From: Psychromonas sp. CNPT3 | GTDB lineage: Bacteria; Pseudomonadota; Gammaproteobacteria; Enterobacterales; Psychromonadaceae | NCBI RefSeq assembly: GCF_000153405.2 | Contig: NC_020802.1 | Span: 1,073,883-1,137,882, forward strand | Direction of reading: 5' to 3' | Length of the DNA stretch: 64,000 nt | Shown here: positions 7,084-63,838 of the stretch, piece by piece | Numbering within the stretch: the stretch's first letter is position 1 | Layout: each line of letters opens with the position of its first letter | Program-made: the position numbers and the translations under genes | Notes under the pieces: generated by a model | Told to the model about the DNA's origin: nothing | Databases searched by the model: none | What the model saw: only the letters and a program-made list of their open reading frames with translations

Positions 7084-7103
7084 GAATACTGGGAATTTTA
7101 ATC

Positions 7104-7568
7104 ATGATCACAATTAGAAATTTCGAAACTAAGGATGTTGCTATTACATGGGATCTTAAGTTCAATACTATTAGATGCATTAATATCCGAGATCATACAG
7201 TTGATCAAACCAAAGTGTGGGCTCCTGATGATCAGGATATGAATTTATGGCAGAAACGCGTAAGTGAAATGAATCCTTTCATAGCCGAATTGAATGGTAA
7301 AGTTGTTGGGTTCGCTGACTTACAGAATGATGGGTATATTGATCACTTCTTCTGCCACTCAGAATATCAAGGTTTGGGTGTGGGTAGAGCATTGATGGAA
7401 CATATTCTAGCCATTGGAAATTTAAAAGGAATTTCACGATTTTATTCTGAAGTGAGTATTACTGCCCGCTCATTCTACGAGCATCTTGGTTTCAAAGTTG
7501 TTAATGAACAGCAAGTAAAAATTAAAGATCAACAACTGACTAACTTCCTAATGGAGAAAGTCAGCTAA
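7104..7568 (+). CDS. GNAT family N-acetyltransferase
   Basis: The 154-residue product has the GNAT fold signature: strand ITIRNF at the start, AELNGKVVGFADL, DHFFCHSEYQGLGVGRALM (the Q/R-x-x-G-x-G/A acetyl-CoA loop), and the closing ARSFYEHLGFKVV. It transfers an acetyl group from acetyl-CoA to an unknown amine. YafP/ElaA-like enzymes are the nearest match in layout. It is a single-gene cassette with intact length. Confidence 0.85.
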   Translation: MITIRNFETKDVAITWDLKFNTIRCINIRDHTVDQTKVWAPDDQDMNLWQKRVSEMNPFIAELNGKVVGFADLQNDGYIDHFFCHSEYQGLGVGRALMEHILAIGNLKGISRFYSEVSITARSFYEHLGFKVVNEQQVKIKDQQLTNFLMEKVS

Positions 7569-7664
7569 CAAGCAATTTAAATGTAGCTAAAACAGTTGGC
7601 TCAGTTTCGCTTTGCTCTACATTTTAGCCAACAATTTTAGTCCGCTTAATGAGGGCGTTATATA
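7563..7664 (+). other. attC recombination site
   Basis: The left edge AGCTAACAAGCAATTTAAATG, arms ACAGTTGGCT / AGCCAACAATTTTAG, and right edge CCGCTTAATGAGGGCGTTATAT form a textbook site for this array. Confidence 0.9.
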
Positions 7665-7669
7665 TCTAG

Positions 7670-7847
7670 ATGAGTATGCAATTTGCAGAGCGATTTAAGT
7701 TTTCGAGTTGGCCTAATAAAGATATCCAAAATGTAGCGTCTGGTATTTATGCTATTTGGAATATCTGGTAGAGAAATAGAAGTTTGCTTTAATTACTCGA
7801 CTACACTCTATAAGGAGATGGATCACTTTATAGGGAAATTGACATGA
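7670..7847 (+). pseudogene. Fragment of a GIY-YIG-like gene
   Basis: An ATG frame at 7670-7771 ends ASGIYAIWN; immediately after, another frame reads ISGREIEVCFNYSTT and runs to the TGA at 7845-7847. Together they resemble the start of a GIY-YIG nuclease (GIYAIW ... YVGxSGRxIE) with the region between lost. The second frame overlaps the start of the next gene by ATGA, which could still matter for translation. The assignment rests on a short motif. Confidence 0.4.
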
Positions 7848-8290
7848 AAAATATATTACCGCCTATTTTATTTCTTATTTTTGTAGTTGTTATGGGGGTT
7901 ATTTGCTGGATGATGGGATCACCACATAACATATCAGGTTATTATACAATGATAGGTTTGCCATTCGTTATTATTGGATTTCTTCTTACGTTGGTAGGCA
8001 AAAGTTTGTTTAAAAGATTAGGCACCAATATTATGACCTTTGACAAGCCAGATCTATTGGTCATGGAAGGTGTATTCAACTACAGCAGAAATCCTATGTA
8101 TCTTGGTTTTGTTATCGCCTTGTTTGGGTTTTCCTTGCTAATGGGAGGCGCTATCTCATCCTTTTTTCTTGTTGGTTTGTTTTTTATTATTACCGATAGA
8201 TGGTATATAGCGTTTGAAGAGCAAGCAATGATAAGTAAATTTGGTTTGCAATATGAAGAATATTGTCACAAAGTTAGACGGTGGATTTAA
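7844..8290 (+). CDS. Isoprenylcysteine/phospholipid methyltransferase-like membrane protein
   Basis: This 148-residue integral membrane protein has helices near residues 4-24, 32-53 and 90-122. The conserved EGVFNYSRNPMYLGF is the hallmark of the ICMT/PEMT-like family, followed by FEEQAMISKFGLQYEEYCHKVRRWI, the usual C-terminal SAM-binding segment. It probably methylates a lipid or a membrane-embedded substrate; which one cannot be told. It ends 5 bases before its attC. Decayed nuclease sequence precedes it in the same cassette. Confidence 0.8.
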   Translation: MKNILPPILFLIFVVVMGVICWMMGSPHNISGYYTMIGLPFVIIGFLLTLVGKSLFKRLGTNIMTFDKPDLLVMEGVFNYSRNPMYLGFVIALFGFSLLMGGAISSFFLVGLFFIITDRWYIAFEEQAMISKFGLQYEEYCHKVRRWI

Positions 8291-8293
8291 AAA

Positions 8294-8402
8294 CGCATAA
8301 CAAGCGACTAAATGCAGATCCCGCATACAGTCGCATTTTTTGCTAAGGATGCCAGCAAAAAAAAGCGCCAGCATTAACTGGCGCTTAGTGGGACGTTATA
8401 CC
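8294..8402 (+). other. attC recombination site
   Basis: The left edge GCATAACAAGCGACTAAATGC pairs with the right edge GGCGCTTAGTGGGACGTTATAC. An extra inner hairpin (GCGCCAGCATTAACTGGCGC) makes the right arm longer than usual. Confidence 0.8.
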
Positions 8403-8417
8403 GATTTGTTATAGTAA

Positions 8418-9674
8418 TTATGCAAGAAGCCCAAGCATAGATAAAGTTTGGAAAACCACCACGCTAATAGCAAAGATAAGAACCACTAGCATGCGCAGAT
8501 GACCACCAGAAACCGCAAAATCAGTATCCGGTAGTTTCTTACGCGCCTGGTATGCCAACGCAACAGGCGTAAATAAGGCAAATACAGCAGCAGCAAAACC
8601 AGCATAACCAATCGCATAAATAAATCCATTGGGAAATAATACGCCCCCAATCATAGGTGGTAAAAAGGTTAACAGCGCTATTTTACTACGTCCGCTCAGA
8701 CTGTTATCCATTTTCAATAAATCAGTTAAAAAGTCAAACAAACCAAGTGCTACGCCTAAAAATGAAGTCGCCACAGCAAAATTGGCAAACAGTTGTAACA
8801 TGACAGCAAGTGTTGGTCCTGATCCCGTTGATTCTAACGCAGAAACCAACGCCCCCATGTTTCCACCCGCAGCCATAACTGTCGCAAAACCTTCTCTGCC
8901 AATCGCAGTAAAGCTTGCCAATAACCATACAAGGTAGATAGCTATCGCGAGCAAACTTCCGTAACGAATTGAGTTAACTACTTTCTTGCTGTCTTTTCGG
9001 TAATACTTAACAAGGCTAGGAATATTCGAGTGAAAACCGAAACAGACCATTAATGCAGGAATAGCAGCCCAGCTATACTGTAAACGTTCGCTCATTTCTG
9101 CAAAGGGCTGTAACTGTGAAAAGTCAGCATTATTCAATAAACCAAACATGGCAATACAGAAGGTGATCACCATGCCGCCAAGCATTGCAGAAGTAAAACG
9201 ATCGACTGCGCGCGTACTCAAACTAACAATGAGTCCCAGTAAAACAGCAAAAATAAAACTACTAGCTGACTGGCTAATACTAATACCTAATCCGGACTGC
9301 AAGCTATGCTCAAGCATCGAACCACCGCCTGATATATACGCATAAATCAGAATATAACTAACAAATAGTACCGATAAACCATTAATTAAACGTAGTGCTG
9401 GCGATAATAATGTCTTGGTCATGGTGTCGAAGTTCACACCATGTTTAAATTTTTGATTCGCTTCCAGTAAATATAACGCCGAGCTATACATGCAATACCA
9501 AGAGACAACAAGAAACAACACTGCCCAGCCAAACCACATATTAGAAGTAAGCACAGGCAATGAAAACATGCCGGCACCGATACTGGTACCGGTAATAATA
9601 AATATTCCACCTAAAGAAGATATTTCCTTATCTTGAGTAGATGTCGTTAACTCTTCAGTTAGTACCTCAGACAT
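8418..9674 (-). CDS. Aromatic amino acid permease (HAAAP family)
   Basis: The 418-residue protein has about 11 membrane helices. It opens with SSLGGIFIITGTSIGAGMFSLPV, the signature of the hydroxy/aromatic amino acid permease family (Mtr, TnaB, TyrP). It imports tryptophan or tyrosine by proton symport at the inner membrane. Its partner gene upstream is trpR, 4 bp away, so tryptophan is the likelier substrate. The pair is in the opposite orientation to every cassette around it. Length and motifs are normal. Whether it is Mtr, TnaB or TyrP cannot be decided by eye. Confidence 0.88.
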   Translation of the reverse strand: MSEVLTEELTTSTQDKEISSLGGIFIITGTSIGAGMFSLPVLTSNMWFGWAVLFLVVSWYCMYSSALYLLEANQKFKHGVNFDTMTKTLLSPALRLINGLSVLFVSYILIYAYISGGGSMLEHSLQSGLGISISQSASSFIFAVLLGLIVSLSTRAVDRFTSAMLGGMVITFCIAMFGLLNNADFSQLQPFAEMSERLQYSWAAIPALMVCFGFHSNIPSLVKYYRKDSKKVVNSIRYGSLLAIAIYLVWLLASFTAIGREGFATVMAAGGNMGALVSALESTGSGPTLAVMLQLFANFAVATSFLGVALGLFDFLTDLLKMDNSLSGRSKIALLTFLPPMIGGVLFPNGFIYAIGYAGFAAAVFALFTPVALAYQARKKLPDTDFAVSGGHLRMLVVLIFAISVVVFQTLSMLGLLA

Positions 9675-49283: not shown

Positions 49284-50198
49284 TTATTGACTCAGCACTT
49301 GTATTTTTTGGTTACTGATATCACCTTCTTTAAAGACCACAAACGCACGTCGATTTGACGCGTTGGCAAGGGCATTATGCTTGACGTCAATGGGCTTACT
49401 TTCGCCAAAAGAGGTGACTTCCCAGATAAATTGACTCGCATCGAGTTTATTGCGTAAGTATTTTTCAACCGCGCGCGCCCGAAAGGTCGCTAATGCCTGA
49501 TTATAATCGGCTGCACCTTGTATATCGGTGTGCCCTGCAATTAATATGCGCCCGTTTAAGCCGGCTAGTTTGTTTATAAACGCATCTAACGTTTTTTTAT
49601 CTTTTTCGGCCAGCTGTGATTTATCAAATTCAAAATGTGAGGCAACCGTTGCGTATATTTTCCGTTTTAAATCAGTGATCGCACACGCAGGATCCTCGTT
49701 TTTAAGGGTGCTTTCTTCAAAGATGAGATAGGCGCGTCGGTTGGCAGCATTTGCCGCTAATGTTTTTTGGGTGCTCAGTGGCTTTGTTTCGCCATAATAT
49801 TTAATTTCCCAATCATAGTTTTTGACCTCGAGCTGTTTACTCAAATAATCTTTTATCGTCTGTGCGCGTTGCGCTGAAAGGTGCACATTGTATTTTAGAG
49901 ATCCTTGTACGTCGGTATGCCCAACAATCGCAATGCGACCTTTTAAGTCTTTAATTTCACGAATAAACAGATCAATTGAAGCCTGATCTGAGGCTTGCAG
50001 ATCATATTTATCAAATTTAAAGTGTTCAACGCTTGCCATATGAATGGCACGTTGTGGTAATAAGCATTCACTGATCAAAAACTTTTGTACTTCATTCTCG
50101 TATTTATTAATGTTTTCTTGGCTGACGTAAGTGTCTGTACTACAAGCAAATACAGAAAACAGACTGGCTATCAGCAGGGCATATGTTTTTTTATTCAT
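49284..50198 (-). CDS. Lipoprotein with two tandem OmpA peptidoglycan-binding domains
   Basis: The 304-residue lipoprotein starts with the signal LLIASLFSVFAC (acylated Cys19, followed by Ser, which favours the outer membrane). It has two OmpA C-terminal domains: one around residues 55-160 (HFKFDKYDL, IAIVGHTDVQGSLKYNVHLS, ANRRAYLIFEE) and one around 187-293 (HFEFDKSQL, ILIAGHTDIQGAADYNQALA, SNRRAFVVFKE). Two such domains in one small lipoprotein is unusual. It is the last gene of the giant-protein operon, 11 bases after the barrel gene, and probably ties that system to the cell wall. Confidence 0.87.
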   Translation of the reverse strand: MNKKTYALLIASLFSVFACSTDTYVSQENINKYENEVQKFLISECLLPQRAIHMASVEHFKFDKYDLQASDQASIDLFIREIKDLKGRIAIVGHTDVQGSLKYNVHLSAQRAQTIKDYLSKQLEVKNYDWEIKYYGETKPLSTQKTLAANAANRRAYLIFEESTLKNEDPACAITDLKRKIYATVASHFEFDKSQLAEKDKKTLDAFINKLAGLNGRILIAGHTDIQGAADYNQALATFRARAVEKYLRNKLDASQFIWEVTSFGESKPIDVKHNALANASNRRAFVVFKEGDISNQKIQVLSQ

Positions 50199-50209
50199 GG
50201 GTTAACCTT

Positions 50210-53200
50210 TTATATTTTGCCGATCAGATTAAGAAAGACACCTTGTGCATCATAATCATCATCATTGGTTAAATTGTCATCAAATGCAGAGAAGTTATAG
50301 CCTACACCGACTTTAAAGTTAGCTGATATATATTTATTAAAAGAGATAAGGGCGCCTTGCTCTAGCTCCTCATTGAGGGTGTCGCCTTTCCAATGGTACT
50401 CGGTGCTAATATCCCAGTCTTTCATAATGCGGTAAGAGGCGCTTAAGCCCACTAAGTAAATTTGGCTATTTACATAAAATGAGGCATTAGAGGCGCGTTG
50501 ATAAGCCTCAAATTTATCTTTGTAAGCGTATTTTACGCCAAAGTCCCAGTGCGCATCCATGGAGTATATTGCTTCGGTCTCAATGATATGGCTCTTTTCA
50601 TCGCTATAATCGACATCTCGATATAAGTTATCAAAATCAACAAGATAAGTATAACGGGCCAAAAAGTTTAAGTTATCATTGTAAATAGGGCGATAAGCCA
50701 GTCCAATACTTGATTCAATAAAGCGCTCTAAGAGGGCGTTTTCAATACTATTGACCGCTTTAGAGTAATCAAATTTAGCAAATAAAGTATATTCATCACT
50801 TAAATGGTGCGTATAACTGTTGGTGGTGACCCATTGCTCAATTTTTTCATTTGTCGCCTGTGCATCATCACGGCGGTATTCTATTTTATGCTTAAGGCTG
50901 ACAGTGTCTAAGTCGATGCTGATATTAAAGCTAATCGCTTGGCGGAAAACCACACCTGTGATGCTGTTTTGAGGATCATCATTGTAGTCAATTTCACCTT
51001 GTTGATAGGCAATGCCCATATCGACATCATCGTTTAAATCATAATCAAAGCCAAACGAGTCAAGTTGACCTTTACCATTACGCTCGCGGGTAAATTGGTT
51101 TTCTTGATAGAAGTCGAGGGTTTGCGTTAAGGTCACGCGTTGACCTAACGTGACGTTGTTTTGCTGCTCTGCGCTGTCATTGAGATAGGTCACATAGGTT
51201 GAATAATTTCGGGTGACGTCATAAGTTAAGCTTGCATCAGTAGCATCACCTCGGTCGCCATCGGTGTAGGCTGCCGATAAACTTAAATCATCAAATATTT
51301 GAACTTCACCACCGAGGGTCAGACTGTCATTTTGTTCATAATTTTCATTGCTGTGCAGGGTTTTTTGGCCTTTAAGGTAAAGACTGTTGTCATTATCCCA
51401 AAGGTATTCAAATTTTGCGCCAGCGAGGCTACCATTACCGGATTCATTTTCAGCGTTCAGCTCGGTAATATTTTTACCGGCTATCGACACTTGAATATTA
51501 TCATTGAGCATCCATGCACCTTCAATTTCGGCGCTACTGGTGTCTGTCTTTAAGGTGCCATCGAGTTCTTTTTCTTGTAATTTAGAGAGACGAGTAGAAA
51601 GTTGAATGTCATCGCTCACTTGTAAACGTAGCTGCGCGCCGTAAGAGGTTTGCTCTACATCATCATTTTGGCTGGCAGATGAGTAGCCGGCATCTTTGGT
51701 TTTATACCACGCTTTAATATCATTGCCGATAGCGCCAAACCAATTTGGATTTAAGTCATAAAGACTGGCCACACCCACAAGTTGTAAGATATTACCGCTG
51801 CGCTCCTGCGTACTTGCAGAGCCCACTTGTGAAAAGCTAAGGCCACCATCATAGGAGACAAAATTACTGTCGGTTTGCGATCCCTCAGAATGGGCAACTT
51901 CCGCTTTGAAGTAACTGCCTTCGGTGGCGCGTAGGGTTAAATCGGTGCTGTATAATTGATGGTCTTGATTATCTTTTTGCTCACTAATATAACTGGCACC
52001 CAATCCAATATTATCATTTACCCAGCCTTTAACGCGTCCGCCATAGGTGGCGTTTTCAGTCGATTCTGTGCCTTTAGGGACATACTCATAATCGACGGCA
52101 AGATAATTACTATAACCATCACGAGGGTCATCATTGATAATGGAAGAAAACGCTTCATTCACAATATCAGACAGTGGCTTTGTTAAAATGATCCGCCCTT
52201 GGTAAGCATCAATCGTATAATCACTGCCGGCTTGTAAGGTGATCTCTTTTTCAACGAAACCGGTGTCTTTATCCATTAATTTAACACTGACTTTATCACT
52301 GCCAGTGACCACTTCACCATGCTTTAAAAAGTACAACGAGCCACCGGTGCCTAAAAACTCTTCGTGTGAGTATAGCGTTTCTGAATTGGCGGCAAAGCCT
52401 ACGATATTTAAACGGTCTGCGCCAAACTCGGTGGTTTCTCGGGTGCGATAATCGGTTTTAAAACCATATAAACTGCGGTTGTAATCGGCGTTGTCAGTGC
52501 CTGTGATCCCGGTGTTATAGTTACCCCAGAGCATTTCTGATTTATCATATTGTACGTTTAAGTAGAGTTTTCCTTGGGTATTCACCCATTTTTTTATGTT
52601 GGCGTTATCGCCATAATTACCGTACATCATTTCATCATCGCCATCGACAATATCAAAGACGCTACGTGTATCTTGCGCTGAGAAAAGCCCGTTAAACATA
52701 TCTTTTATATTGCTTTCTTGGGTGTCGATGTGAGTGATAATACGTAATTTATCACCAAATTTACCAAGGCCAAAGTAGGCTAAACGGCCTTGATTATAAA
52801 TATTATCGGTGTATTGGTCATCGACACTGAGCGCACTATTGTCGCTACTGACAAAGTTTTTACCGATGTATAAATCGGCTAAACCTGCTTGCGCGTAATA
52901 TGTTTCGGGAATGCGCGCATACAGAGAAAAACGGCGTTTACTGCCATCTTTAAAAATGACAGTGGTCGGGAAGCGATAACTGTCGGTGGGTAAAAACAGC
53001 TCTGCATAGAGCTTATTGTCTTCAACATCAAACTCATCATCACCGATGTGTACGCTTTCAACCCCTTTTAAGCCGGAGCCGATAAATTTTATTAGCCCCG
53101 ATGAAGTCGGGATATTATGACGCTTAAGTTGGGCTTTGCCGTAATGTTGACCGGCATCTTCATCATTAGTATTTTTATCAATGCTGACTTGTTTATCGCC

Positions 53201-53770
53201 ATTAACTAAATCAATAACACCTAATGTAGTGATGTCCATATTGTTGTCTTTGTCCCACACTTTAAGGCGGAATAAGAGTTGCTCACCACGTTTAAAGGCA
53301 TAATCTTTGACCTTTGATTGCCCATCCCAATCAATATTACTGCTGTTTGATAAACTGTCACCACGCTGTATGACCAAGGGCTCACTCAGGTGTCTATCAT
53401 TTCCACGGTAAATCTCGAGTTGCCAATGATGAATGTAATAACTAAAGTTGGTGTCGAGGTTAAAGCTTAATGGGTTGAGTAATTTCCCCTGCTTAACTTC
53501 AACTTCGTCACTGACGCTAAGGCTCAGCACCGGATCAAAACGGCTAATGTCACGGCTTGCCCAAATGGCGCCTTCTTTTAAATAAATACGTGAACTTTCA
53601 CTTTGCGTTTGCGCTTGTTGTTTCAGATCCGTGCTGTTTGAGCCTAGCTTTTTTAAATGTTTGCTCTCATCTGCAAGCGCGAGGCTCGGCATTAAACACA
53701 ATATAAACACAAATGTTTTTTGTTTCATTAATCGCTTCATTATCATTCTACTTGATGGAATATTTATCAT
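50210..53770 (-). CDS. Large outer-membrane beta-barrel protein of a DUF11-linked operon
   Basis: The 1186-residue product has a signal peptide (cleavage near ALA-D, residue 33). Residues about 60-190 form a soluble domain (SFNLDTNFSYYIHHWQLEIY, then LFRLKVWDKDNNMD); 210-290 resemble a short Ig-like or plug domain (IPTSSGLIKFIGSGLKGVES, FKDGSKRRFSLYARIP). From about 295 on, many alternating strands (e.g. YAQAGLADLYIG) run to a terminal GVFLNLIGKI, a usual barrel end apart from the final Ile. No TonB box is visible. The start among several ATGs (53770 to 53728) is uncertain. It lies 18 bases after the giant gene and is probably its export or anchoring partner. Confidence 0.75.
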   Translation of the reverse strand: MINIPSSRMIMKRLMKQKTFVFILCLMPSLALADESKHLKKLGSNSTDLKQQAQTQSESSRIYLKEGAIWASRDISRFDPVLSLSVSDEVEVKQGKLLNPLSFNLDTNFSYYIHHWQLEIYRGNDRHLSEPLVIQRGDSLSNSSNIDWDGQSKVKDYAFKRGEQLLFRLKVWDKDNNMDITTLGVIDLVNGDKQVSIDKNTNDEDAGQHYGKAQLKRHNIPTSSGLIKFIGSGLKGVESVHIGDDEFDVEDNKLYAELFLPTDSYRFPTTVIFKDGSKRRFSLYARIPETYYAQAGLADLYIGKNFVSSDNSALSVDDQYTDNIYNQGRLAYFGLGKFGDKLRIITHIDTQESNIKDMFNGLFSAQDTRSVFDIVDGDDEMMYGNYGDNANIKKWVNTQGKLYLNVQYDKSEMLWGNYNTGITGTDNADYNRSLYGFKTDYRTRETTEFGADRLNIVGFAANSETLYSHEEFLGTGGSLYFLKHGEVVTGSDKVSVKLMDKDTGFVEKEITLQAGSDYTIDAYQGRIILTKPLSDIVNEAFSSIINDDPRDGYSNYLAVDYEYVPKGTESTENATYGGRVKGWVNDNIGLGASYISEQKDNQDHQLYSTDLTLRATEGSYFKAEVAHSEGSQTDSNFVSYDGGLSFSQVGSASTQERSGNILQLVGVASLYDLNPNWFGAIGNDIKAWYKTKDAGYSSASQNDDVEQTSYGAQLRLQVSDDIQLSTRLSKLQEKELDGTLKTDTSSAEIEGAWMLNDNIQVSIAGKNITELNAENESGNGSLAGAKFEYLWDNDNSLYLKGQKTLHSNENYEQNDSLTLGGEVQIFDDLSLSAAYTDGDRGDATDASLTYDVTRNYSTYVTYLNDSAEQQNNVTLGQRVTLTQTLDFYQENQFTRERNGKGQLDSFGFDYDLNDDVDMGIAYQQGEIDYNDDPQNSITGVVFRQAISFNISIDLDTVSLKHKIEYRRDDAQATNEKIEQWVTTNSYTHHLSDEYTLFAKFDYSKAVNSIENALLERFIESSIGLAYRPIYNDNLNFLARYTYLVDFDNLYRDVDYSDEKSHIIETEAIYSMDAHWDFGVKYAYKDKFEAYQRASNASFYVNSQIYLVGLSASYRIMKDWDISTEYHWKGDTLNEELEQGALISFNKYISANFKVGVGYNFSAFDDNLTNDDDYDAQGVFLNLIGKI

Positions 53771-53788
53771 AAAATCAAAGGCTCTGCA

Positions 53789-56700
53789 TTATTTTTTGTG
53801 TACACTAAAATTAAATTTAGTCAGCTTGTTGGGTGAGATCCTAAGCACTTTAGGGTTCTCGCTGATAACGTGCATACCGGTGGGTAAAGAGTCCGTGTCG
53901 AGTTTGATTAATGTTTGTGTGCCTTTTTTATTGAGCACCCATTGATCTGGCAAGTGATAACGGCCATATTCATCGGTTTCAATGGTAATACCATCGACGC
54001 TTAATAATTTGATCCCCGGAATACCATCTTCATAAAGGCCGATATTTTCAATTTTAATTTCCCATAAGTACGTTTTGCCATCGGCATAAAGACTGCGGGT
54101 GATATTAAGGTTTTCAGCCCGGAGCCCTTTCGCTTTGTCGCCACTGTGGTTTATGGTGATGTTATTATCTTTGCTAAAGGTGATATGGCTGCCTGCATTA
54201 CTGTTGATGCTAAATGCAAAATAATCGGGTGTTAGGGTGTTAAAGCTCACAATAATGGTATTGCTTTGACTCAAGGTGCGATTTTGAGATAACCCCATTA
54301 AGCGCGAAATCTTCAGATCATCAATAATGTCATCTTGACTGATCACTTTATTATCGCGGGTGAGGGTGGTTGAGCCACTAATATAAGTGTCTGCAGCTAA
54401 ATCGACGTGCACGATAATGCCCGTTGCGGTTGCATCTGCTTGATAACCGTCTTGGTTATGATCTTCAAATACTTTACCAATGACAGACGCCGTATCAAAT
54501 ACTTTATCAGGTGCAATTTCAACACTTGCACTGCTTAAATTTGAAACCGTGCTTAATGCGCCACTGGAACGTGTATTAACCACTGCACGTGCATATGCGG
54601 TGTTAATGTATTTTCCGAACGTGGTGCCGACTGATGCGCGCAGAAGGTAACGCACACGTACTTTATCGTGCATATTATTGCCAGCACTACTGATCAATAG
54701 GTCGCCAATATTAAAGTGTAATACATTGCTGATACTCGGATCGGTATAAGAGATAACATCGTCGCTATTGTCCAAAATGCCATCTTCACCACTGTGCGTT
54801 ATCTCTGCTGAATCGGGGACATATTGAAAGCCTGATGGGTAGCGATCTTCCAGCACCACGCCCTTAAATTCTGATTCATTGTTGTTTTCAATGAGCACCT
54901 CATATTCCACTACTTCGCCCACTTGGATAATATCTTTTAAGGCGCGTTTAGTGACTAATAATTGGCCTTCATTATCCGCGTATTTTTTGACATGGACGCT
55001 GACACTTGCTCTTGCCGTTTCACCCGTTGGCGCAAGCGCATTAAAGGTGTTGGTGATATTATCATTTATGCCTTTATTAATACTGCCGATCACTGTTATC
55101 AAAAAGGAATTCGTAGCAGACGCTTTTAAGGTTTGTGTGGTATTTAAATCGACGTTATTTTGTGTAGCAATGATTTTTCCACTGGGCATCTCTTTTATGA
55201 TGGTTATCCAATCTGTAAATAATGGTGTGCCGGCAGCATTTTGTAATGCTGAGATCTCATCGGTTAATAATATTGCAGATGCATCGTTTGAGCCCCGATT
55301 ATAAGCATTTAACGTATAGGTTAGTTGGAGATCTGTATTGATATATTCTTTTTTATCTGCAATCTTAGTAACCACAAGAACGATACCCGCGGGTTGTAGT
55401 AGGGCACTTTCCGTTATCTCATTATTATTTTTAGTCATGTTGGCATTATTAATAATGGGGCCAATGGCATCGGCATTGACTCTGCCTGTTAAGGTAAATT
55501 TAATGCGAGCATTGGGCGCTAAGTCGATATTGATATCGAGCGCATCTGCAATATCAACCGTCTCAATAATACTGGTGTCATATTTGTCATTAGAGATCTT
55601 GTAACTGATATCAAAATCACTAAATGCGGCTTCTTCTTTTCCCGACAAAGTGTTGACGGTTAATTCATCCATCAAATCAACGATATTAATACCACGTGCA
55701 AAGCTATTGGCATTATTGGTTAAGGTTAAGAAGAAACTGGCTTCTTCGTTGGCAGTATAAATGCCTTCTTTGGTGCCATCTGCAACGCTTTTGACAAAGG
55801 TAACGTTTTGAATCGCAGGCAGTAAGAAAGCGCTTCGAGATACCGTTAGGTTATTAAACTCTAAACTCGCGTTGTTATTGACTCTTCCCACGGCTTTTTT
55901 ATTGACCAGACCACTGATGGTGAATTCAACCGTATCATTGGGCGCCAGTGTGATGTTGACATCAAGATCGGCATTATTAGCCTCAAAGTCGCTGATGATG
56001 GTTTTAACATCACCGGTTTTACTTTTTATATTCCATGTATCAAATGCCGGCTCTGTCTTGGCATCGATCGTATTAACGCGCAGGCCAGAGATAATGTCTT
56101 TAAGTTTAATATCACTCGCGTAACTATTGCTGTCATTTTTTATCGTTAAAATATAATCTGAGGGCTCACCCGGTGTATAAAAAAGAACCGGTGCGCTTTT
56201 GGTAAAGATAAGTCCGGGTATACGGGCAATACTTTTAGCTTGTGCGCTTGATGTCTGACCATCAAATTGTACGGTGACTTCATTGATGACATCACCATAA
56301 ATATCTTCTAATAAGTCCGCACTGGCCGTGATCGTTAATGTGTCATTGGGCGAAATATCAATATAACCATCGATGTCACCTTTATGATTAAGTGGCATAA
56401 GGGTATTTCCGGTTGCGGAAATCGCTTGAATTTTTAATGAGTCTGCTTTAAACGCGAGGCTTGTTTTACCGAAAACATTAGCGCTTTCGATTAAAGAGAA
56501 AAGGTCGGTGATATGTACATCTTTTGCCCATGCACCTGTTGAGTTTACGATGTTGATGACATAAGTTAATTTATCGCCAGATTCATACTCGCTTTTATCA
56601 ACTACTTTTGTCACTGTTACATTCGCTTTTTCAGGTCGATATGTTGCAAAGGCGCTTTGCTTTGTTCCCTTATCATCTTCAACGTCAACCGTATTCGTAA

Positions 56701-59700
56701 TGTCGCCCATGGTTTTTGCATTCACTTTTGCCTGGAAATGCAATTTTATTTTTTGATGTGGGGCAATATTATAGCGCGCGTTAAATCCATTGGCGTCGTT
56801 CTGTGAGAACAGTTGCTGCGTTAAATTAGTATTATCACCCTCGATAATGATGGTTGGTGTATCCCAGATGTCAAAGACTTGTCCGGGTAACGTTTGGCCC
56901 GCAAAATCAGAACGAATAGATGATACAAGATCAGAAATAAGGACATTGGTTAAGTAACCGTCACCGACGTTAGACACTTGTACATCAAAACCAATGACTT
57001 CATTGGGTAAATAGGTATCGGTGGCTTTAGTTATTGTTTTTTCTACTTCTAATGTGCCATTAACCGGCACAATATTACCAAAGTCTAATTTGTAGTTACG
57101 GCCATTGATGGTCGCTATATTGGTAAATTTACCGATAGCATCACTGCGAATATTTCCTGTGATTTTTATTTCCACTTTCGTAAAATCAGTATCACTACGT
57201 GACGCCGCCATTTTTATCTGTGCATTGATGTCTCCTGATAACGGTAATGTACTGATGTCGGTGTATGTTTGTTGACTATCACTGGTGGCATCGGAGATAA
57301 CGTTGGACTCAATCGTCCAATTTTCGAGTGCTGTTTGTTCTGTTCCGTCTGCGGTTTCGACCAGAAACATTGAAATTGGATCAATCACACTAACAATGGT
57401 ATTCACCTCCGAGGTATTGGAGATGGTGATACTATAAGTTATTTTTTGACCGGGGATATAAGACTCGGTATCGGAGGTCTTATTAGCGTGAATACTTGCC
57501 GTACCTTCGCTGAGCGTGATGGTATTAGAAGGTTTTGAATTGATTTTTGCGGTGTTTAGAATGTCACCCGTTGCGCGTGCAGAAACCGTTCCAAGCATTT
57601 CAAAAATTATTTTATCGCCAGGCATAAGATCAAGGCGAGCATCTAAATCGACGCGCCCCTCAAAGTTACCATTAATTGAATAACGTGCATCATCGGGACT
57701 TTCAATCACACTGACACTATTGGAGGTAAACGCATTGACGTTATCATTTACTTTAATTTTACTGATAAAATCTTCGATGTGGATATCATTTGCAATGCCG
57801 TCACCGTTATTACTCACTATGAGTTGGTATGTGACTTGACCTTCTGGATTATAATTACAGTTTTTACCGGTGCTTGATGGGAAAGTACATGTACCGCTTT
57901 CTGCTGTGGTTGATGCGACGCTCTTCTCAAAGCTTATAAGCGCAGGTGCGGGCGGTATTTTCGCTGTTTGAGCATTGTGATTATCGGCATAAGCCACATT
58001 CGCATCAATATCGCCTAGCGCATCTTCTCGAATATTGGCTTTGATGAGAAAGATAATATTTTCTTCGGGTGCGATATCGACACCTGCACTTGGATCTAAT
58101 ATTAAATCGGCATTGTTGAGATAATCAAGGGCTAAAGTATCGACCTTACTATCAAGACCGGTTGTGATCACATTGGTGATATTAAAATCAGTAAAGGCAC
58201 TGACAATGCTGCCTCCAATAACTTCGACGTGCACGCCAGAGATAATATCGCGTAATAAGATATTATCGAACCAAACGGCATTTTTATTATCCACGATCAC
58301 TTCATAGATAACTTCATCACCGGGCAGGTAATAGTTTTGTGCACTAGTATAAGGGCGCCCGCCAATAGATATTATTTTTTTATCAATACTGACGTCATGT
58401 GCAAGTGGTTTTATCGTTGAGCTAGCAAATGTTTTATTATCATATTTTGGACTAATTTTTACATTTTCTAATGTGTCTGGGCGGATGTCGGACTGCATCA
58501 CAAAGTCTATCCAGCCACCGGCTGCAATGGAAAGGTAAGGCAGGTCGATATCTTTATTATTGCCATCGACGAAGTTGCCAATAGAGGTCATTGATTCATT
58601 AGATTGGCTTACTTTTAATGTCCAACTGTCATAAACGGGCGCTTGTGTATTATCAATTTGGCCACTTGTTATTTGTGCCAGTTTAACCTTTAGCTTAGAG
58701 AAGGCTTCCGTTAATGCTTTGCCGTATTCAAGGCCTTGTCCTTTATTTTCTAAACGCAGATGATAGACTACTTTTTCACCGTCTATGGTGTGATCATAAA
58801 TCGTTTTTTCGATGCTTAGGCTATCATCGGTATACGCTTTATGCATTTTTTTAATGTTGGCTAAAAGCATATGTGAGCGTGCGGAGCTACTTTTATAGCG
58901 TGAGTCGATAGTGACACTATTAATAAAATCGCCGACCACATTTTCTTTAATGTGCGCTTTAATGGTGTAGGTTAAAAAAGAGTCTCCACTAGAGGCGTTT
59001 TTGGCTGCCAGATCAAAATTGGTATTGAGATCATTATCAGCCGAATAACTACCCGCATCTGTAATGCCACTATTATCTTTTTCAGCTGTTATGGTCCAAT
59101 GATCAAAAGCAGGGCAGGGTGTTGTTTGTCCGTTGCTTAAAGAGTAACAAGCGCTCATCACGCTGCCAATGTCGTCTTTAATTGACAGGTTATCTAAATG
59201 TACATCTTGCTCATTACGTAATTTTATCTGATATTCAACATAACCATCGGGTTTATAGCCACCGAGGCCACTGGCTAACTTTGTGACACCATCTGGCTCA
59301 TAATAGGCAATGATTTCTTTTTTATAAGTGAATTTTTGTGGTGCTGGTTTAGAGATATTACTCACTAGGTTCGCATTTACGGTAAGATTATTGACAATAT
59401 TACCAATGGCCTTTGGATGTACGGTTGCTTCAATAAAATATTGTAGTTTACTGTCTTTGCCCAGTGAAAAATGTGTGTTGAGATCTTGGTCGTCAGCGTA
59501 AGTTCCCGCACTTGAATTCATATCGGCTAGAGAGTCAGTGATTTTGTCGGTAATAGTCCAACCTGATGGGAATGCTTTGTCGTTATTACCATCAATTAAA
59601 TCGACTGTGATCTTCGATAATTCATCTAAAATTGGAATGTTATAAGCATTACCTCCGCCGGTGTTTTTAACCGTTAAAATATAATTTAATGGCTGATCTG

Positions 59701-62700
59701 GCAGATAATTTTTTTCTTGTGTTGTTTTAAAGAAGCTTAGGTGAGGAGGTGCCGATTCAACCGTAATACCCCCAATCGTAATATCACCAACAGCGTCATT
59801 ACGCACTGTGCCAATGACTTGGTAAGTCACCGAGTCACCACTGGCAATATCGATAATGGTGTTAATGTTTTGATTGTTTTCAACGGTGCCATCGCTACGT
59901 CCATCGGTTGTACCGTCTCCACCATGCGTGCTGATTTTAGACACATCGACACTAAAGACATCTTTAAACGGATGTTGTGAGCTACCATTCATTAATAAAA
60001 CGCGTACATCCGTAATATTTTCTTTAACCGTGCGATCATTCGTATAACCTGTTTTAGAGGCATATGTGACGCGGTAAGTCAGGGTGTCGCCTGGGCCATA
60101 ATATTTATTGGGTTTACCGTTGACCAATAAAACTTTCGTGATACTTAAATGATTGGTCGCTAGGTTAATTTCATGCAGTGACTCTTTTGATAATTGGTTA
60201 CTGTCCGCATAGTCTTTATAAACAAAGGCGGTATTACTGATGATCCGGCTGAGAGTATTACCCTCTTTCATGCCCACAAAATTATCTTTTACATGCACTT
60301 TGATTTTAAATATTTTATTTTCACCCGGGCTTAAGGTTAACTTAATGCCCAAGTTTTTCGCTGGGTAAATAAAATCATCGTTCGTTTTAGGGCCAAAAGA
60401 TGACTCGCCAGGGAGTTTTATTTGCCAAGAATCAAACGGAGATTGATCTTCTAAATTGGGATAATGTTTATCTTTACTATTTGCGAGTACCCCTTTGATT
60501 TCGGTTAGCATATCAGTGACTGTTAAATTTTCTTCAGTAGTCGTCTCACTGTTATTAACAATCATAATTGAGTAGATAAGATCTTCGCCCGGGATCATGC
60601 GCGTTTGATCTGCTACTTTCAAAATGGAGACGTTTAATTTACTTAACGCATCTCCCTTGCCCACACTTGCTGTTGAAGAGTGATGTGTATTGTTTAACGG
60701 ATCATAGATTTTAACCGTATTAGTAATGTTGTCAGCCACATAATCATTTTTTACGATGCCGGTGACGGTATAGGCGACAAAACCGAGTCCACCATAAGTG
60801 CCCGTTTTACCATCGGCGGGATCAAGATCAACAACGGTTGCAATATTTTGGCCATTTTGTAGTGTATTTGTGGTATCAAAATTAGAGCCTGTGCGCGGAT
60901 GTGTATCTGTCTTACCTTCTAAAGTCCAGTTAGGCTCAAAAATATTAAGCGCCGTAATATTATCGGTTACTTGCACATTATTCGCGTAGCCTTGGCCACT
61001 ATTAAACACATAAATATCAAAAGAAAGCTTCTGTCCGGGTGTAAAATTATCAAAGCTGGTCGTTTTAAGGACGGTCACGCGCGGTGGTTTAGGCGTGATA
61101 GAGGCATCTGCGTTGAGCGTGCCATGCGGGCTTTGCATTTCAAGCGTTGCATGGTTAGTAAAAGTCCCCCAAATAATTTTGCTCTCATCAGAGCGGTCAA
61201 TCTTAGCAATAATAGTGTAGGTTATTTGTATATTGGCAGGGATCTGTATTGTTGTATTTATATTTGTATCATCATCAAAAACGCCCGTACTGGCGGCCGC
61301 TATCAGCTTTGCTTGTTGCGCGCTACTAAGACCTGAAGGATCTAACACTTTTACGTCGACGCTTGTTGTCCATGCATTAAAGGCCGGTATTTTGCCTCCT
61401 GCATGCAGTATTTCAGCCTCAATATCGGTTAAGGTATCGATTAATTTAACATCGATAGCAAAGCCAGCTTGTTTTTTGTTTTTAATCAATAACTTGTAGG
61501 TTACGGTTGTTGAGCCTTTTGAGTAATAGCTATTATTAGTATTATTAAGAAGATCATTTACCTGTGCAGATTTTGCGAAGCTTACGTCCGGATCATAAGG
61601 GTAGGCCATACGGTTGGCGGTTAAACTATTATTAATGCGTACATTATTATCGATAGTGCCATTTGCAGTGGCAGTGATATGAACTTTAATGCGATAAGTA
61701 ATAATGGTATGTGCTTCAATGGAAGCATATACATCAAATTTATCAGGGCTTTGTAGTGTTCCATTGATACCTGTAACGGTGGACTGAGTGGGCGAGCCAT
61801 CAATATGTTCACTGCTTGCTGTCACTTCCCAAGAGTCATATGCGGGAATTTGAGCACCATTAATATCAGTGACCATGATAGCGCCAAGATCATCAAAAAC
61901 ACGAATATTATCGGCAATGCCATCGCCAGTATTACCCACTTTTACGGTATATATCAAAGTGCTTCCGGGCGCATATTTTTCGATATTAACGTCTTTGATA
62001 ATCGACAAATTAAAGTCTGGCATATCAAGGCCCGTACCGGTTTCACTGATATTATCATTACAAGCGGGGTCGTTATCGACAATATGGCCAATATTTGTGG
62101 TGCTGACGGTAGCGGTCAATTTATATTTGATCTCTTTACCGGGGGCGATATCTACAGAAATTTGTAGGTCGCCCGTTTGAGGTACATTATAAGAAAATTG
62201 ACCGGGATCACTTCCCTGCGCGCCATTACCCTTGATCACTTCTAATTTCCAACTTGAAAAAGCAGGGCCATCGGGCGCGTTATTTGATTGCTCGCTTTTT
62301 ATACAGGTTAAGTTGTCCGTCAACTGTAAATTATTCGCAAAATATCTATCAGAGGTGTTTTTGACGCTAATGTTATAAACAATATCCCCCCCTGGAACAT
62401 ACTCGCCTTGCAACGTCGATTTTGTTATTTGTATTTCAGGATCAGTTTCATCAAGAACGGTGGCAGCGATAAGATCTTCTGATATTTTATTCTCATCTTT
62501 TTTTATTTCATTACTATCAAATATTCTTGCTGTTACGCCCTTAATATCGCCGATACTCACCGGACTTATGTTGGCACTTATCTCGTATTCTATTTTTTCG
62601 CCCGGGTAGATAGAAACCAGATCATCAAATATTTTGTCTGTTTGGGCTCCTGATATTTGTAACTCAGAGGTGGAGTGGCTGCCAATATTGACGACTGAAA

Positions 62701-63838
62701 AGGCCCAAGTACTATTAACGGGGCCGAGTTGATCGCTGGAGTTATTGTTATTAAGATCTAAATCATTGGCATTATTAGTGATTAAATCAGCAATGTTATG
62801 GCGCACATGATATTGGCTGACAATGTTATTACTGGTATTGCTAATGGTCAGTGTCATGCTCATTGCTGAGTCAACATAATATGGGCTACTACTGTTATAT
62901 TTATGCTGCGTTATTTCCAAGTAGCCAATGGCGGGTGGAATGCTTGATTTTATTGATTTTTTTATGCTTCGATCGGTCTCACTGCTCAGTGAAAGATTAA
63001 TATCCCCCACTAAATTATCAGTGATGGTCGTTTGTATGGTGTAGGTTAATGTATCGCCAGTGGCAATGATTGCTTTTTCAATCTGCAGATCATCACTACT
63101 TAAACTATTACCTACATTACTGTCGGCGTTATTTTTTTTTGCGCTAATACTGACCTGACTAAAAGCGGGGATCGCGGTGCCATCGATACTTTCAACAAGT
63201 AAAGACATAAAGTCTTGTTGCAAGGATAAATGCTGAATTTTATCTGAGCCGGTATTTTTAACTTTTAATGTGTAAGTGAGGCTGTTATTAATTTGATATT
63301 CACTTTTATCTGCGATTAAGCTAAGCGAATACTTATAAACAGGGGCTTTAACAATGGGAGCATTATTTTGGATATCATCGCTATCTGATGTCACCTTGAC
63401 GCTGAGAGTATCGATGGGGACTAATAGTTCATCGCTTACCACTGCTGTTACTGTGTAGGTTAACGTGCCATTTGCACGTAACTGCGCGTTACTGACTAAT
63501 AAGTCGCCACTGCCTACAAAGTCTCCTTTATTTGATAATAAAGAGGCTTGTCCTAAAATTTTACTGCTTACAAAAACGTTTTGATTGTTAGATTGAAGAG
63601 ATGTGAAGTCTGCATTAACAGAGATATTGCGGATCCGACGACTACTGTTATTTTTAATTTTTATCTGATAAACCAAGGGCGCATTATTTTCATAGGTGCT
63701 TTGATCAACTTGAATATCGATAGACAGGTCGCTTGCAAGTGCTTGTAATGAAAATAAACTTAGTATGCAACTTATGAATGTTACAAAGAGAATTCGATAT
63801 GAATATGAAAATAATTTGATCACAATACGTTTATCCAT
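53789..63838 (-). CDS. Giant exported DUF11-repeat protein (3349 residues)
   Basis: A signal peptide (cleavage near residue 35, LQALA) leads to about 21 repeats of roughly 146 residues, each starting like KxxxxYxPGxxxxYxIxVxNxG and ending with xAxGxIxNxV. The pattern is DUF11/CARDB-like, Ig-fold, best kept in the last repeat (about residue 2960, LLVTKRALKDIIQVGEVVEY). The C-terminal ~230 residues have VIGKVFEDHNQDGYQ and DEYGRYHLPDQW, an SdrD-B/carboxypeptidase-regulatory-like domain. It is probably a long rod at the cell surface, an adhesin or sheath protein. It has no autotransporter barrel and no RTX repeats, so the next gene (the barrel) likely handles export or anchoring. No strong ribosome site precedes the ATG. 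Confidence 0.88.
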   Translation of the reverse strand: MDKRIVIKLFSYSYRILFVTFISCILSLFSLQALASDLSIDIQVDQSTYENNAPLVYQIKIKNNSSRRIRNISVNADFTSLQSNNQNVFVSSKILGQASLLSNKGDFVGSGDLLVSNAQLRANGTLTYTVTAVVSDELLVPIDTLSVKVTSDSDDIQNNAPIVKAPVYKYSLSLIADKSEYQINNSLTYTLKVKNTGSDKIQHLSLQQDFMSLLVESIDGTAIPAFSQVSISAKKNNADSNVGNSLSSDDLQIEKAIIATGDTLTYTIQTTITDNLVGDINLSLSSETDRSIKKSIKSSIPPAIGYLEITQHKYNSSSPYYVDSAMSMTLTISNTSNNIVSQYHVRHNIADLITNNANDLDLNNNNSSDQLGPVNSTWAFSVVNIGSHSTSELQISGAQTDKIFDDLVSIYPGEKIEYEISANISPVSIGDIKGVTARIFDSNEIKKDENKISEDLIAATVLDETDPEIQITKSTLQGEYVPGGDIVYNISVKNTSDRYFANNLQLTDNLTCIKSEQSNNAPDGPAFSSWKLEVIKGNGAQGSDPGQFSYNVPQTGDLQISVDIAPGKEIKYKLTATVSTTNIGHIVDNDPACNDNISETGTGLDMPDFNLSIIKDVNIEKYAPGSTLIYTVKVGNTGDGIADNIRVFDDLGAIMVTDINGAQIPAYDSWEVTASSEHIDGSPTQSTVTGINGTLQSPDKFDVYASIEAHTIITYRIKVHITATANGTIDNNVRINNSLTANRMAYPYDPDVSFAKSAQVNDLLNNTNNSYYSKGSTTVTYKLLIKNKKQAGFAIDVKLIDTLTDIEAEILHAGGKIPAFNAWTTSVDVKVLDPSGLSSAQQAKLIAAASTGVFDDDTNINTTIQIPANIQITYTIIAKIDRSDESKIIWGTFTNHATLEMQSPHGTLNADASITPKPPRVTVLKTTSFDNFTPGQKLSFDIYVFNSGQGYANNVQVTDNITALNIFEPNWTLEGKTDTHPRTGSNFDTTNTLQNGQNIATVVDLDPADGKTGTYGGLGFVAYTVTGIVKNDYVADNITNTVKIYDPLNNTHHSSTASVGKGDALSKLNVSILKVADQTRMIPGEDLIYSIMIVNNSETTTEENLTVTDMLTEIKGVLANSKDKHYPNLEDQSPFDSWQIKLPGESSFGPKTNDDFIYPAKNLGIKLTLSPGENKIFKIKVHVKDNFVGMKEGNTLSRIISNTAFVYKDYADSNQLSKESLHEINLATNHLSITKVLLVNGKPNKYYGPGDTLTYRVTYASKTGYTNDRTVKENITDVRVLLMNGSSQHPFKDVFSVDVSKISTHGGDGTTDGRSDGTVENNQNINTIIDIASGDSVTYQVIGTVRNDAVGDITIGGITVESAPPHLSFFKTTQEKNYLPDQPLNYILTVKNTGGGNAYNIPILDELSKITVDLIDGNNDKAFPSGWTITDKITDSLADMNSSAGTYADDQDLNTHFSLGKDSKLQYFIEATVHPKAIGNIVNNLTVNANLVSNISKPAPQKFTYKKEIIAYYEPDGVTKLASGLGGYKPDGYVEYQIKLRNEQDVHLDNLSIKDDIGSVMSACYSLSNGQTTPCPAFDHWTITAEKDNSGITDAGSYSADNDLNTNFDLAAKNASSGDSFLTYTIKAHIKENVVGDFINSVTIDSRYKSSSARSHMLLANIKKMHKAYTDDSLSIEKTIYDHTIDGEKVVYHLRLENKGQGLEYGKALTEAFSKLKVKLAQITSGQIDNTQAPVYDSWTLKVSQSNESMTSIGNFVDGNNKDIDLPYLSIAAGGWIDFVMQSDIRPDTLENVKISPKYDNKTFASSTIKPLAHDVSIDKKIISIGGRPYTSAQNYYLPGDEVIYEVIVDNKNAVWFDNILLRDIISGVHVEVIGGSIVSAFTDFNITNVITTGLDSKVDTLALDYLNNADLILDPSAGVDIAPEENIIFLIKANIREDALGDIDANVAYADNHNAQTAKIPPAPALISFEKSVASTTAESGTCTFPSSTGKNCNYNPEGQVTYQLIVSNNGDGIANDIHIEDFISKIKVNDNVNAFTSNSVSVIESPDDARYSINGNFEGRVDLDARLDLMPGDKIIFEMLGTVSARATGDILNTAKINSKPSNTITLSEGTASIHANKTSDTESYIPGQKITYSITISNTSEVNTIVSVIDPISMFLVETADGTEQTALENWTIESNVISDATSDSQQTYTDISTLPLSGDINAQIKMAASRSDTDFTKVEIKITGNIRSDAIGKFTNIATINGRNYKLDFGNIVPVNGTLEVEKTITKATDTYLPNEVIGFDVQVSNVGDGYLTNVLISDLVSSIRSDFAGQTLPGQVFDIWDTPTIIIEGDNTNLTQQLFSQNDANGFNARYNIAPHQKIKLHFQAKVNAKTMGDITNTVDVEDDKGTKQSAFATYRPEKANVTVTKVVDKSEYESGDKLTYVINIVNSTGAWAKDVHITDLFSLIESANVFGKTSLAFKADSLKIQAISATGNTLMPLNHKGDIDGYIDISPNDTLTITASADLLEDIYGDVINEVTVQFDGQTSSAQAKSIARIPGLIFTKSAPVLFYTPGEPSDYILTIKNDSNSYASDIKLKDIISGLRVNTIDAKTEPAFDTWNIKSKTGDVKTIISDFEANNADLDVNITLAPNDTVEFTISGLVNKKAVGRVNNNASLEFNNLTVSRSAFLLPAIQNVTFVKSVADGTKEGIYTANEEASFFLTLTNNANSFARGINIVDLMDELTVNTLSGKEEAAFSDFDISYKISNDKYDTSIIETVDIADALDINIDLAPNARIKFTLTGRVNADAIGPIINNANMTKNNNEITESALLQPAGIVLVVTKIADKKEYINTDLQLTYTLNAYNRGSNDASAILLTDEISALQNAAGTPLFTDWITIIKEMPSGKIIATQNNVDLNTTQTLKASATNSFLITVIGSINKGINDNITNTFNALAPTGETARASVSVHVKKYADNEGQLLVTKRALKDIIQVGEVVEYEVLIENNNESEFKGVVLEDRYPSGFQYVPDSAEITHSGEDGILDNSDDVISYTDPSISNVLHFNIGDLLISSAGNNMHDKVRVRYLLRASVGTTFGKYINTAYARAVVNTRSSGALSTVSNLSSASVEIAPDKVFDTASVIGKVFEDHNQDGYQADATATGIIVHVDLAADTYISGSTTLTRDNKVISQDDIIDDLKISRLMGLSQNRTLSQSNTIIVSFNTLTPDYFAFSINSNAGSHITFSKDNNITINHSGDKAKGLRAENLNITRSLYADGKTYLWEIKIENIGLYEDGIPGIKLLSVDGITIETDEYGRYHLPDQWVLNKKGTQTLIKLDTDSLPTGMHVISENPKVLRISPNKLTKFNFSVHKK

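Follow-up and report, generated by a model that had tools for sequence, protein, structure and literature searches.

A giant DUF11 rod, a very large predicted outer-membrane barrel and an OmpA wall anchor: a candidate autotransporter-like machine for single-molecule surface fibres in Psychromonas

How Gram-negative bacteria export and anchor long single-chain fibres that lack known anchors is an open question: a survey across all phyla could assign none of the anchors on its list to 1,785 fibrillar-adhesin-like proteins, and suggested that there are new ones (PMC8286594). Several described systems touch on the problem. The DUF11 domain has been renamed CLIPPER, its crystal structure revealing a Lys-Asn isopeptide bond and a presumed catalytic Asp, coupled with resistance to heat and protease (PMC12617251); SprA is a barrel of 36 strands with a lumen of about 7 nm (PMC7463736); and TpgA roughly doubles the force needed to extract the AtaA anchor in simulations (PMC13082670). 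Here we describe a three-gene locus of Psychromonas sp. CNPT3, found within a window of 64,000 nucleotides (positions 1,073,883 to 1,137,882 of NC_020802.1, the single 3.05 Mb contig of the genome), which encodes a giant rod protein, a protein predicted to form an outer-membrane barrel, and a lipoprotein with two OmpA domains (Table 1).

The three genes all lie on the minus strand with intergenic gaps of 18 and 11 bp, and the near-contiguity put forward in the original prediction, made by reading the sequence without database searches, agrees with the open reading frame (ORF) coordinates to the base. Our favoured reading, which we consider probable, is that the trio is one machine that builds a single-molecule surface fibre in an autotransporter-like manner: the barrel exports the rod, whilst a C-terminal module of the giant and the OmpA domains hold its ‘foot’ in the periplasm. 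We are close to certain that giant, barrel and OmpA parts make up one functional unit, because they are physically linked and, in nature, are also found fused into single chains; that the giant is a surface fibre is very likely; and the barrel is its likely exporter. Both export through the barrel and exposure at the surface are what we infer, with export favoured because of the length of the rod, its domain content and the size of the barrel. The uncharacterised secretion/anchoring system originally proposed is therefore upheld as a joint machine by linkage, fusions and co-occurrence, whereas secretion or holding of the giant by the barrel is an interpretation, if the one that we rate best.

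A contig scan returned 428 barrel relatives, the best 80 of which were kept to give a census of 78 loci (numbered L) that leans to closer relatives. The gene immediately upstream of the barrel encodes the C-terminal module in 69 loci; the module is part of the barrel chain itself in six and of the next gene downstream in one (L095), with two loci at a contig edge. It is thus beside or fused to the barrel in all 76 evaluable loci. Gaps between an upstream giant and its barrel are 50 bp or less in 61 of the 69, with 4-bp overlaps in 18, and the wide overlaps at L081 and L086 arise only from calling the barrel ORF at its first start codon. OmpA domains take up more varied positions, being encoded by a separate downstream gene (38 loci), at the C-terminus of the giant (29), within the single chain (four) or at the N-terminus of the barrel (L060, at a contig edge); they were undetected in six, amongst which L055 lies at a contig edge and L095 carries OmpA in its downstream giant. 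Single chains are ordered rod, module, OmpA, barrel in L089 (at least 4442 aa), L058 (2170 aa) and L070, and L056 has the same order plus an extra OmpA domain before the module. In a more distant clade, a module-like match and the barrel share one chain of about 1400-2400 aa in ten of ten loci (L153 being cut by its contig), and three of them have a detected OmpA domain, which L152 and L153 carry between module and barrel and L149 before the module; these ten loci, like the 13 relatives whose rods were scanned (see below), were picked by hand and not at random. The constant chassis is therefore module, barrel and, in most loci, OmpA, encoded as three, two or one gene, upon which the rod varies.

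A sample of 398 genomes from the phylum (numbered G) provides a less biased check than the census. It contains the barrel in 60 genomes and the module in 47; the original prediction had hinged upon barrel and giant occurring together, and both are carried by 46 of those 60 and by 46 of those 47. When only strong matches are counted, the module is present in 22 of 22 barrel genomes and the barrel in 22 of 23 module genomes, the 23rd (G257) having both barrel and module cut by contig ends. G235 shares the layout of L095: its 3505-aa giant directly follows the barrel, starting 45 bp past it. The barrel also matches 22 plasmid records, of which six were examined: the five annotated ones (Croceibacterium, Sinorhizobium, Phyllobacterium, Eleftheria and Nitratireductor) have a giant gene directly upstream of the barrel, and an unannotated V. 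campbellii plasmid record carries the trio. A tblastn search for barrel relatives on viral contigs gave none. Nearer to the window, the barrel was found in four of 60 genomes, its own included, two of these four being from its own genus, which contributed 24 genomes, and the other pair from a second genus of its order; the trio is an accessory system that is sporadic in the order.

Some loci depart from the common layout. Four from Photobacterium (L042, L043, L044 and L046) have 719-779 bp between giant and barrel, as against near-zero gaps elsewhere, and in L042 and L044 this spacer is AT-rich (GC 0.29) with no open stretch longer than 69 codons. The barrel of L050 and L105 and the OmpA gene of L026 and L028 are in pieces, through decay or sequencing error. 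The system also turns up in metagenome bins (L051, L061, L065, L072 and L074) whose labels are Fusobacteriia, Fusobacteriales, Campylobacterales or Epsilonproteobacteria, and which represent either a wider spread or mis-binned contigs. In the distant clade, the single-chain gene has neighbours on its own strand that encode DUF11-type proteins of about 165-996 aa, some of them immediately preceding it (L148, L149, L150, L151, L152 and L154); these proteins are possible extra fibre subunits.

The giant begins with a Sec-type signal (about residues 1-36, read by eye), and a profile built from its own repeats finds 20 full copies plus a partial match at a canonical DUF11 domain, so that both the Sec signal and the roughly 21 Ig-like repeats first described are recovered; Pfam marks 14 DUF11 stretches (E 1.3e-42). 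Pairwise identity between repeats averages 25% and peaks at 38%, and a search of the giant gene for tandem repeats at the DNA level found none; with this low identity and lack of DNA repeats, the repeats are old. The 3771-aa giant of Vibrio campbellii (L012) has 23 full repeats by the same profile, and window repeats find their best match in the repeat of equal number in 16 of 20 cases in L012 and in 18 of 20 in L131, which suggests that most repeats hold a conserved individual identity. The exceptions are repeats 1 and 18 (both in L012), 19 and 20; repeat 20 best matches the last full repeat in both relatives, suggesting that rod length changed near the foot. Recent tandem expansion was also considered, and is ruled out by the lack of DNA tandem repeats and the position-specific best matches between giants.

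Sequence further suggests that the rod is probably cross-linked internally. The Lys/Asp/Asn isopeptide triad, picked by eye from the alignment and then verified against the sequence, is complete in 14 of 21 repeats, has its Asn one place off in two and is missing from five, including the first three; the giant therefore has two marks of a CLIPPER adhesin, namely tandem DUF11 domains with a signal (by eye) and the triad. Its six non-signal cysteines make three pairs, each within a single repeat, which fits an oxidising compartment. A profile of the tail matches the CLIPPER crystal structure 9IFR (E 2e-6) and the Aureispira ‘grappling-hook’ protein GhpA (E 3.7e-7); by sequence, the whole giant matches nothing in the PDB beyond one chance match (E 0.93). 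No adhesive Pfam family was found in the giant of the window, and an adhesive region of unrecognised family is possible at its free end, where the first three repeats lack the triad. Amongst relatives, adhesin-stalk domains (DUF11/CLIPPER, DUF7507, SdrD_B, SpaA, cadherin-like, He_PIG and GEVED) were found in 12 of the 13 rods scanned; this domain content speaks for the ‘very long surface fibre’ of the original prediction, the surface location itself being presumptive.

Two relatives have unusual rods. In Acidobacteria bacterium Mor1 (L069, 1889-13282), a single 3797-aa chain with an acidic, DTDGDG-type start ends in module and barrel, such that the passenger can apparently be unrelated to DUF11. 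In the closest relative, Psychromonas sp. CD1 (L126 of G004, 6913-8532), the giant has just 539 aa, made up of about one full repeat, a DUF11 domain and the module with no visible signal; barrel and OmpA gene are intact, and the 4 kb upstream yields no further repeat bar one chance-level match. Either the giant has been truncated here or the assembly is at fault.

The giant ends in 229 residues that do not belong to the rod, and form an SdrD_B-like module with the signature GKVFxDxNxDGxQ ... GIPG ... IETDxxGRYH ... ENPxVxRI. In the window, an insert of about 130 residues separates GYQ from EDGIPG, and many gammaproteobacterial members resemble it in this; the uninterrupted domain (GKVFDDxNxNGYQDxGEPGLPGVRV...) is seen in the alphaproteobacterial L014 and L017, and also in L016, L061, L069, L084 and L085. 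The last 115 aa are 71-76% identical to those of four Vibrio-type giants, as against 27-31% for the first repeat, and the module is the best conserved of the portions that were measured. An AlphaFold model of the tail (residues 2940-3349) has a mean predicted local distance difference test score (pLDDT) of 89.9. Its nearest solved structures are isopeptide-bearing pilins and staphylococcal/MSCRAMM-type adhesins at low template modelling (TM) scores, probably because several domains were aligned together. The giant was originally said to have no export domain of its own; Pfam and NCBIfam indeed find no secretion signal of a known class past its N-terminus, but the conserved C-terminal module had been overlooked, as had the predicted size of the barrel and the shifting place of the OmpA anchor. 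In the giants of L015 and L017, from plasmids of Hyphomicrobiales, a stretch after the module resembles the OmpA fold by eye but lacks the peptidoglycan-binding residues, and is missed by the OmpA profile.

The barrel protein has a Sec-type N-terminus (read by eye) and falls into no Pfam family (up to E 1) and no NCBIfam family; by sequence, its profile matches no PDB chain. Its AlphaFold model, built with 53 sequences (mean pLDDT 74.2, predicted TM score (pTM) 0.69), comprises two soluble Ig-like β-domains, in keeping with the two soluble N-terminal domains of the original prediction, followed by a long β-meander. Counting strands manually from the DSSP elements of this model, we arrive at a predicted total of at least 34 and perhaps 38-40, where an even number of 38 or 40 would fit a barrel with both termini in the periplasm; the barrel is presumably closed. 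A highly conserved insert after the first predicted strands is a possible plug. In Foldseek, SprA comes first by E-value (2.5e-7) with a query-normalised TM of 0.14. We therefore put P0002 (the barrel protein) forward as a very large predicted outer-membrane barrel, and do not claim homology to SprA. Scans of nine barrels gave weak matches, to OMP_b-brl in two and to DUF2490 in two (best 5.3e-6 and 3.2e-6), and database labels on the relatives range from TonB-dependent receptor and outer membrane protein transport protein to OmpA and hypothetical protein.

The third protein has a lipobox-like end, VFAC, with the cysteine at position 19 (by eye), and two OmpA stretches (Pfam, E 1.9e-34), both with a D...N...R spacing that we take to be the pattern of the OmpA peptidoglycan-binding site, with its Asp/Arg pair; the lipoprotein with two peptidoglycan-binding domains of the original prediction is thus borne out at the sequence level. 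The same spacing is present in 118 of 137 OmpA-domain matches from loci L012-L118 (112 of 131 distinct sequences), the others being fragments, loop-length variants and degenerate copies. Against the NCBIfam TpgA model, whose cut-off is 350 bits, the lipoprotein scores a weak 56 bits (E 2.8e-15).

Table 1. Features of the trio, with positions in the window
Feature	Positions	Strand	Basis
Giant rod protein, 3349 aa, pI 4.77	53789..63838	-	ORF, Pfam, own-repeat profile
Rod, 20 full repeats, residues 42-2940	55019..63715	-	Own-repeat profile
21st repeat, canonical DUF11, residues about 2963-3090	54569..54952	-	Pfam; tail profile matches 9IFR
C-terminal SdrD_B-like module of giant, residues 3121-3349	53792..54478	-	Motif/profile, AlphaFold, identity comparison
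Predicted outer-membrane barrel protein, 1186 aa	50210..53770	-	ORF; AlphaFold; no Pfam/NCBIfam family
Two predicted soluble Ig-like domains, residues about 60-190 and 210-287	52910..53593	-	AlphaFold
First 4-6 predicted membrane strands, residues 290-461	52388..52903	-	AlphaFold
Highly conserved insert, residues about 466-550, EFLGTGGSLYFL...GSDYxIDxxQGRIILTxPL	52121..52375	-	Conservation, AlphaFold
Meander, 34 predicted strands of at least 8 residues, residues 553-1185	50216..52114	-	AlphaFold
Double-OmpA lipoprotein, 304 aa	49284..50198	-	ORF; Pfam
OmpA domain 1, residues 60-154	49737..50021	-	Pfam; D...N...R spacing kept
OmpA domain 2, residues 188-288	49335..49637	-	NCBIfam scan; D...N...R spacing kept

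From these parts, we propose a model for how the fibre would be built. Giant and barrel would each be exported separately by Sec, and the barrel inserted in the outer membrane by the β-barrel assembly machinery (BAM). In the periplasm, the Ig domains of the barrel would capture the C-terminal module of the giant, and the rod would then thread outward through the wide barrel with its N-terminus distal, such that the repeats fold outside and cross-link by Lys-Asn isopeptide bonds. The module would remain at the periplasmic mouth of the barrel, and the OmpA domains would bind peptidoglycan, so that the cell wall bears the load on the fibre. The whole would amount to an autotransporter (passenger, foot and barrel) whose chain is cut into pieces in this genome, and under shear it would likely serve to hold the cell to particles, hosts or other cells.

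Several observations weigh against this model, or at least call for caution. Of the 40 upstream neighbours used as seeds for the module profile, 35 come from the 78 loci, and those 35 are no blind test; the remaining 41 of the 76 positive loci lay outside the seed set. No module match was obtained in 14 of the 60 barrel-positive genomes; 11 of these belong to the distant clade (families f53 and f56), and among them L152 and L153 give a module-like match at a looser threshold. In L059, L065, L068 and L069, neither the barrel itself nor its neighbours gave an OmpA match, and the rod of L069 matches no Pfam family. In the barrel model (pLDDT 74.2, pTM 0.69), closure is presumed, and global similarity to solved barrels in Foldseek is weak, with a best query-normalised TM of 0.20 (FimD) among the 50 matches listed. 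Finally, the single-chain rod lies N-terminal to a peptidoglycan-binding domain, an arrangement compatible with a wholly periplasmic rod: as the OmpA domains should be periplasmic, so should the foot, and the rod either exits through the barrel or stays inside.

The latter case, in which the rod would link the outer membrane, the peptidoglycan and possibly the inner membrane to give the envelope stiffness or shape, draws on that same domain order and on the giant having, by Pfam and NCBIfam, no secretion signal of a known class beyond its N-terminal one. We nevertheless find it unlikely, given that some 21 Ig domains would extend to some 80 nm (from the usual size of an Ig domain), more than the width of the periplasm, that the rods of relatives consist of extracellular adhesin-stalk domains, and that a channel-sized barrel would be left without a job; sporadic presence (four of 60 genomes, own included) also suits an accessory adhesin more than a structural part. 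Somewhat less improbable, if still a minority view, is that barrel and OmpA lipoprotein merely clamp a fibre translocated by some other route, comparable to a trimeric autotransporter's membrane part and its partner TpgA, and that the barrel is no channel. Reinforcement of the AtaA membrane anchor by TpgA in simulations (PMC13082670) offers a precedent, and the third gene does match the TpgA model, if weakly and far below its cut-off; amongst five annotated loci, one (L016) has a type II secretion-like cluster from about 2.8 kb past the barrel and another (L017) an autotransporter-domain gene about 3.7 kb past it. Yet those five have no further exporter gene in common next to the trio, nor is one present in the ten ORFs flanking the trio of the window, the predicted barrel is far bigger than a clamp requires, and in the single chains it is the obvious candidate exporter.

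A role as a TonB-dependent or other uptake receptor, the barrel importing a nutrient that the giant captures at the surface, is very improbable. Relatives are annotated as TonB-dependent receptors (L017, for example) and such receptors are amongst the Foldseek matches, but plug and TonB-dependent-receptor families went unmatched in the nine barrels, the five annotated loci share no uptake gene set, and the predicted number of strands is well over the 22 of TonB-dependent receptors.

The surroundings of the trio give no reason to enlarge it. On one flank are genes for a LacI-type regulator, an amino-acid permease, a tRNA-binding-domain protein and TM2 and DUF4377 proteins; on the other, past a gap of 1.76 kb, are major facilitator superfamily (MFS) and LytTR two-component genes. 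We see no grounds for adding any of these to the system, and scans of the ten flanking ORFs found no exporter or chaperone family. The gap, which lies directly upstream of the giant and past the end of the window (L156, 722-2479), contains no ORF of 80 aa or more, and is possibly a long regulatory region. Scans of the window gave 69 promoter-like sites (51.8 expected) and 26 terminator-like sites (14.4 expected), none of them assigned, and no Rfam or tRNA match.

As for novelty, the literature already has the CLIPPER stalk domain, and also the notion that a CLIPPER adhesin is anchored through OmpA (PMC12617251). The original prediction knew of no defined function for DUF11/barrel/OmpA neighbours: DUF11 itself has since been characterised, in that same paper, as a cross-linked adhesin-stalk domain, whereas for the function of the trio, as for the barrel partner, the foot module and the split and fused forms, we found no description in the literature searched (open-licence only, and parts of texts). 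Papers on the type XI secretion system, Brucella and Asaia were set aside as DUF11 reports, since they mention mainly DUF1194, DUF1176 and DUF1134; in a gelatinase paper, DUF11 sits in a protease. For a large group of DUF11/SdrD_B giants, the system would give a concrete answer to the question of export and anchoring; it links a nameless barrel family to a task, predicts a single-chain outer-membrane barrel that may be larger than SprA, and occurs in tractable hosts such as Aliivibrio fischeri (L020), which makes it directly testable.

Amongst described proteins, B9T28_05395 of Acinetobacter silvestris (PMC12617251; PDB 9IFR) resembles the two-gene form, in that a tandem DUF11/CLIPPER stalk ends in a C-terminal OmpA-like anchor, whereas the trio of the window has its OmpA domains on a lipoprotein of their own; that paper covers the adhesin alone, and its main text does not use the terms ‘barrel’ or ‘secretion’. 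AtaA with TpgA likewise combines a giant adhesin with a membrane anchor that is strengthened by a periplasmic partner. TpgA has an OmpA-type domain, and the OmpA wall anchor may be regarded as its analogue; in contrast to AtaA, we have here a monomeric Ig rod and a separate large barrel, with a lipoprotein that is far under the TpgA cut-off.

Chaperone-usher systems (FimD/PapC) invite comparison through their layout, an usher being a barrel with soluble N-terminal domains and a plug inserted after about the sixth strand; soluble N-terminal domains and a possible plug insert at about that point are predicted here as well, and FimD gives the best TM (0.20) among the matches listed. No usher family was matched in the window barrel (Pfam, NCBIfam) or in the nine barrels, no chaperone is encoded in the ten flanking ORFs, and the fibre would be a single covalent chain rather than a series of assembled subunits. 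TonB-dependent-receptor plug and barrel families were unmatched in the window barrel and the nine barrels (Pfam). With SprA/Sov of type IX, the barrel shares a very large predicted single-chain form, SprA being the top Foldseek match by E-value, but there is no significant global superposition (TM 0.14), one dedicated cargo is encoded next door in place of many, and the type IX sorting domains Por_secre_tail and CHU_C were unmatched in the giant (Pfam, NCBIfam).

A further parallel is with type V secretion, where passenger and barrel are one chain in type Va and the products of two partner genes in type Vb. Here, single chains run from passenger through foot to a C-terminal outer-membrane barrel, and other members are split between two genes, much as Va relates to Vb; passenger and barrel share a chain in six of the 78 loci, and a rod gene lies directly upstream of the barrel in 69. 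The models for type V components (Autotransporter, IAT_beta, YadA and TpsB/POTRA) matched neither P0002 nor P0003 (Pfam, NCBIfam, up to E 1), nor the nine barrels (up to E 0.01); as compared with type V, the barrel is predicted to be several times larger, and Ig domains and an OmpA wall anchor take the place of POTRA domains. There is a fair chance that a system which works like type V, yet matches no type V, type IX or usher family model, is a class of its own. In its most specific form, this idea is tentative, and less likely than not: a barrel of some 38-40 strands, more than the 36 of SprA, would export one giant, isopeptide-cross-linked adhesin that is recognised by its SdrD_B-like module and anchored to the wall by OmpA, the same machine being made from a single polypeptide, from two or from three in different alpha-, beta- and gammaproteobacteria. 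If true, the system could be seen as a missing counterpart of type V secretion, suited to very large fibres that are folded or semi-folded.

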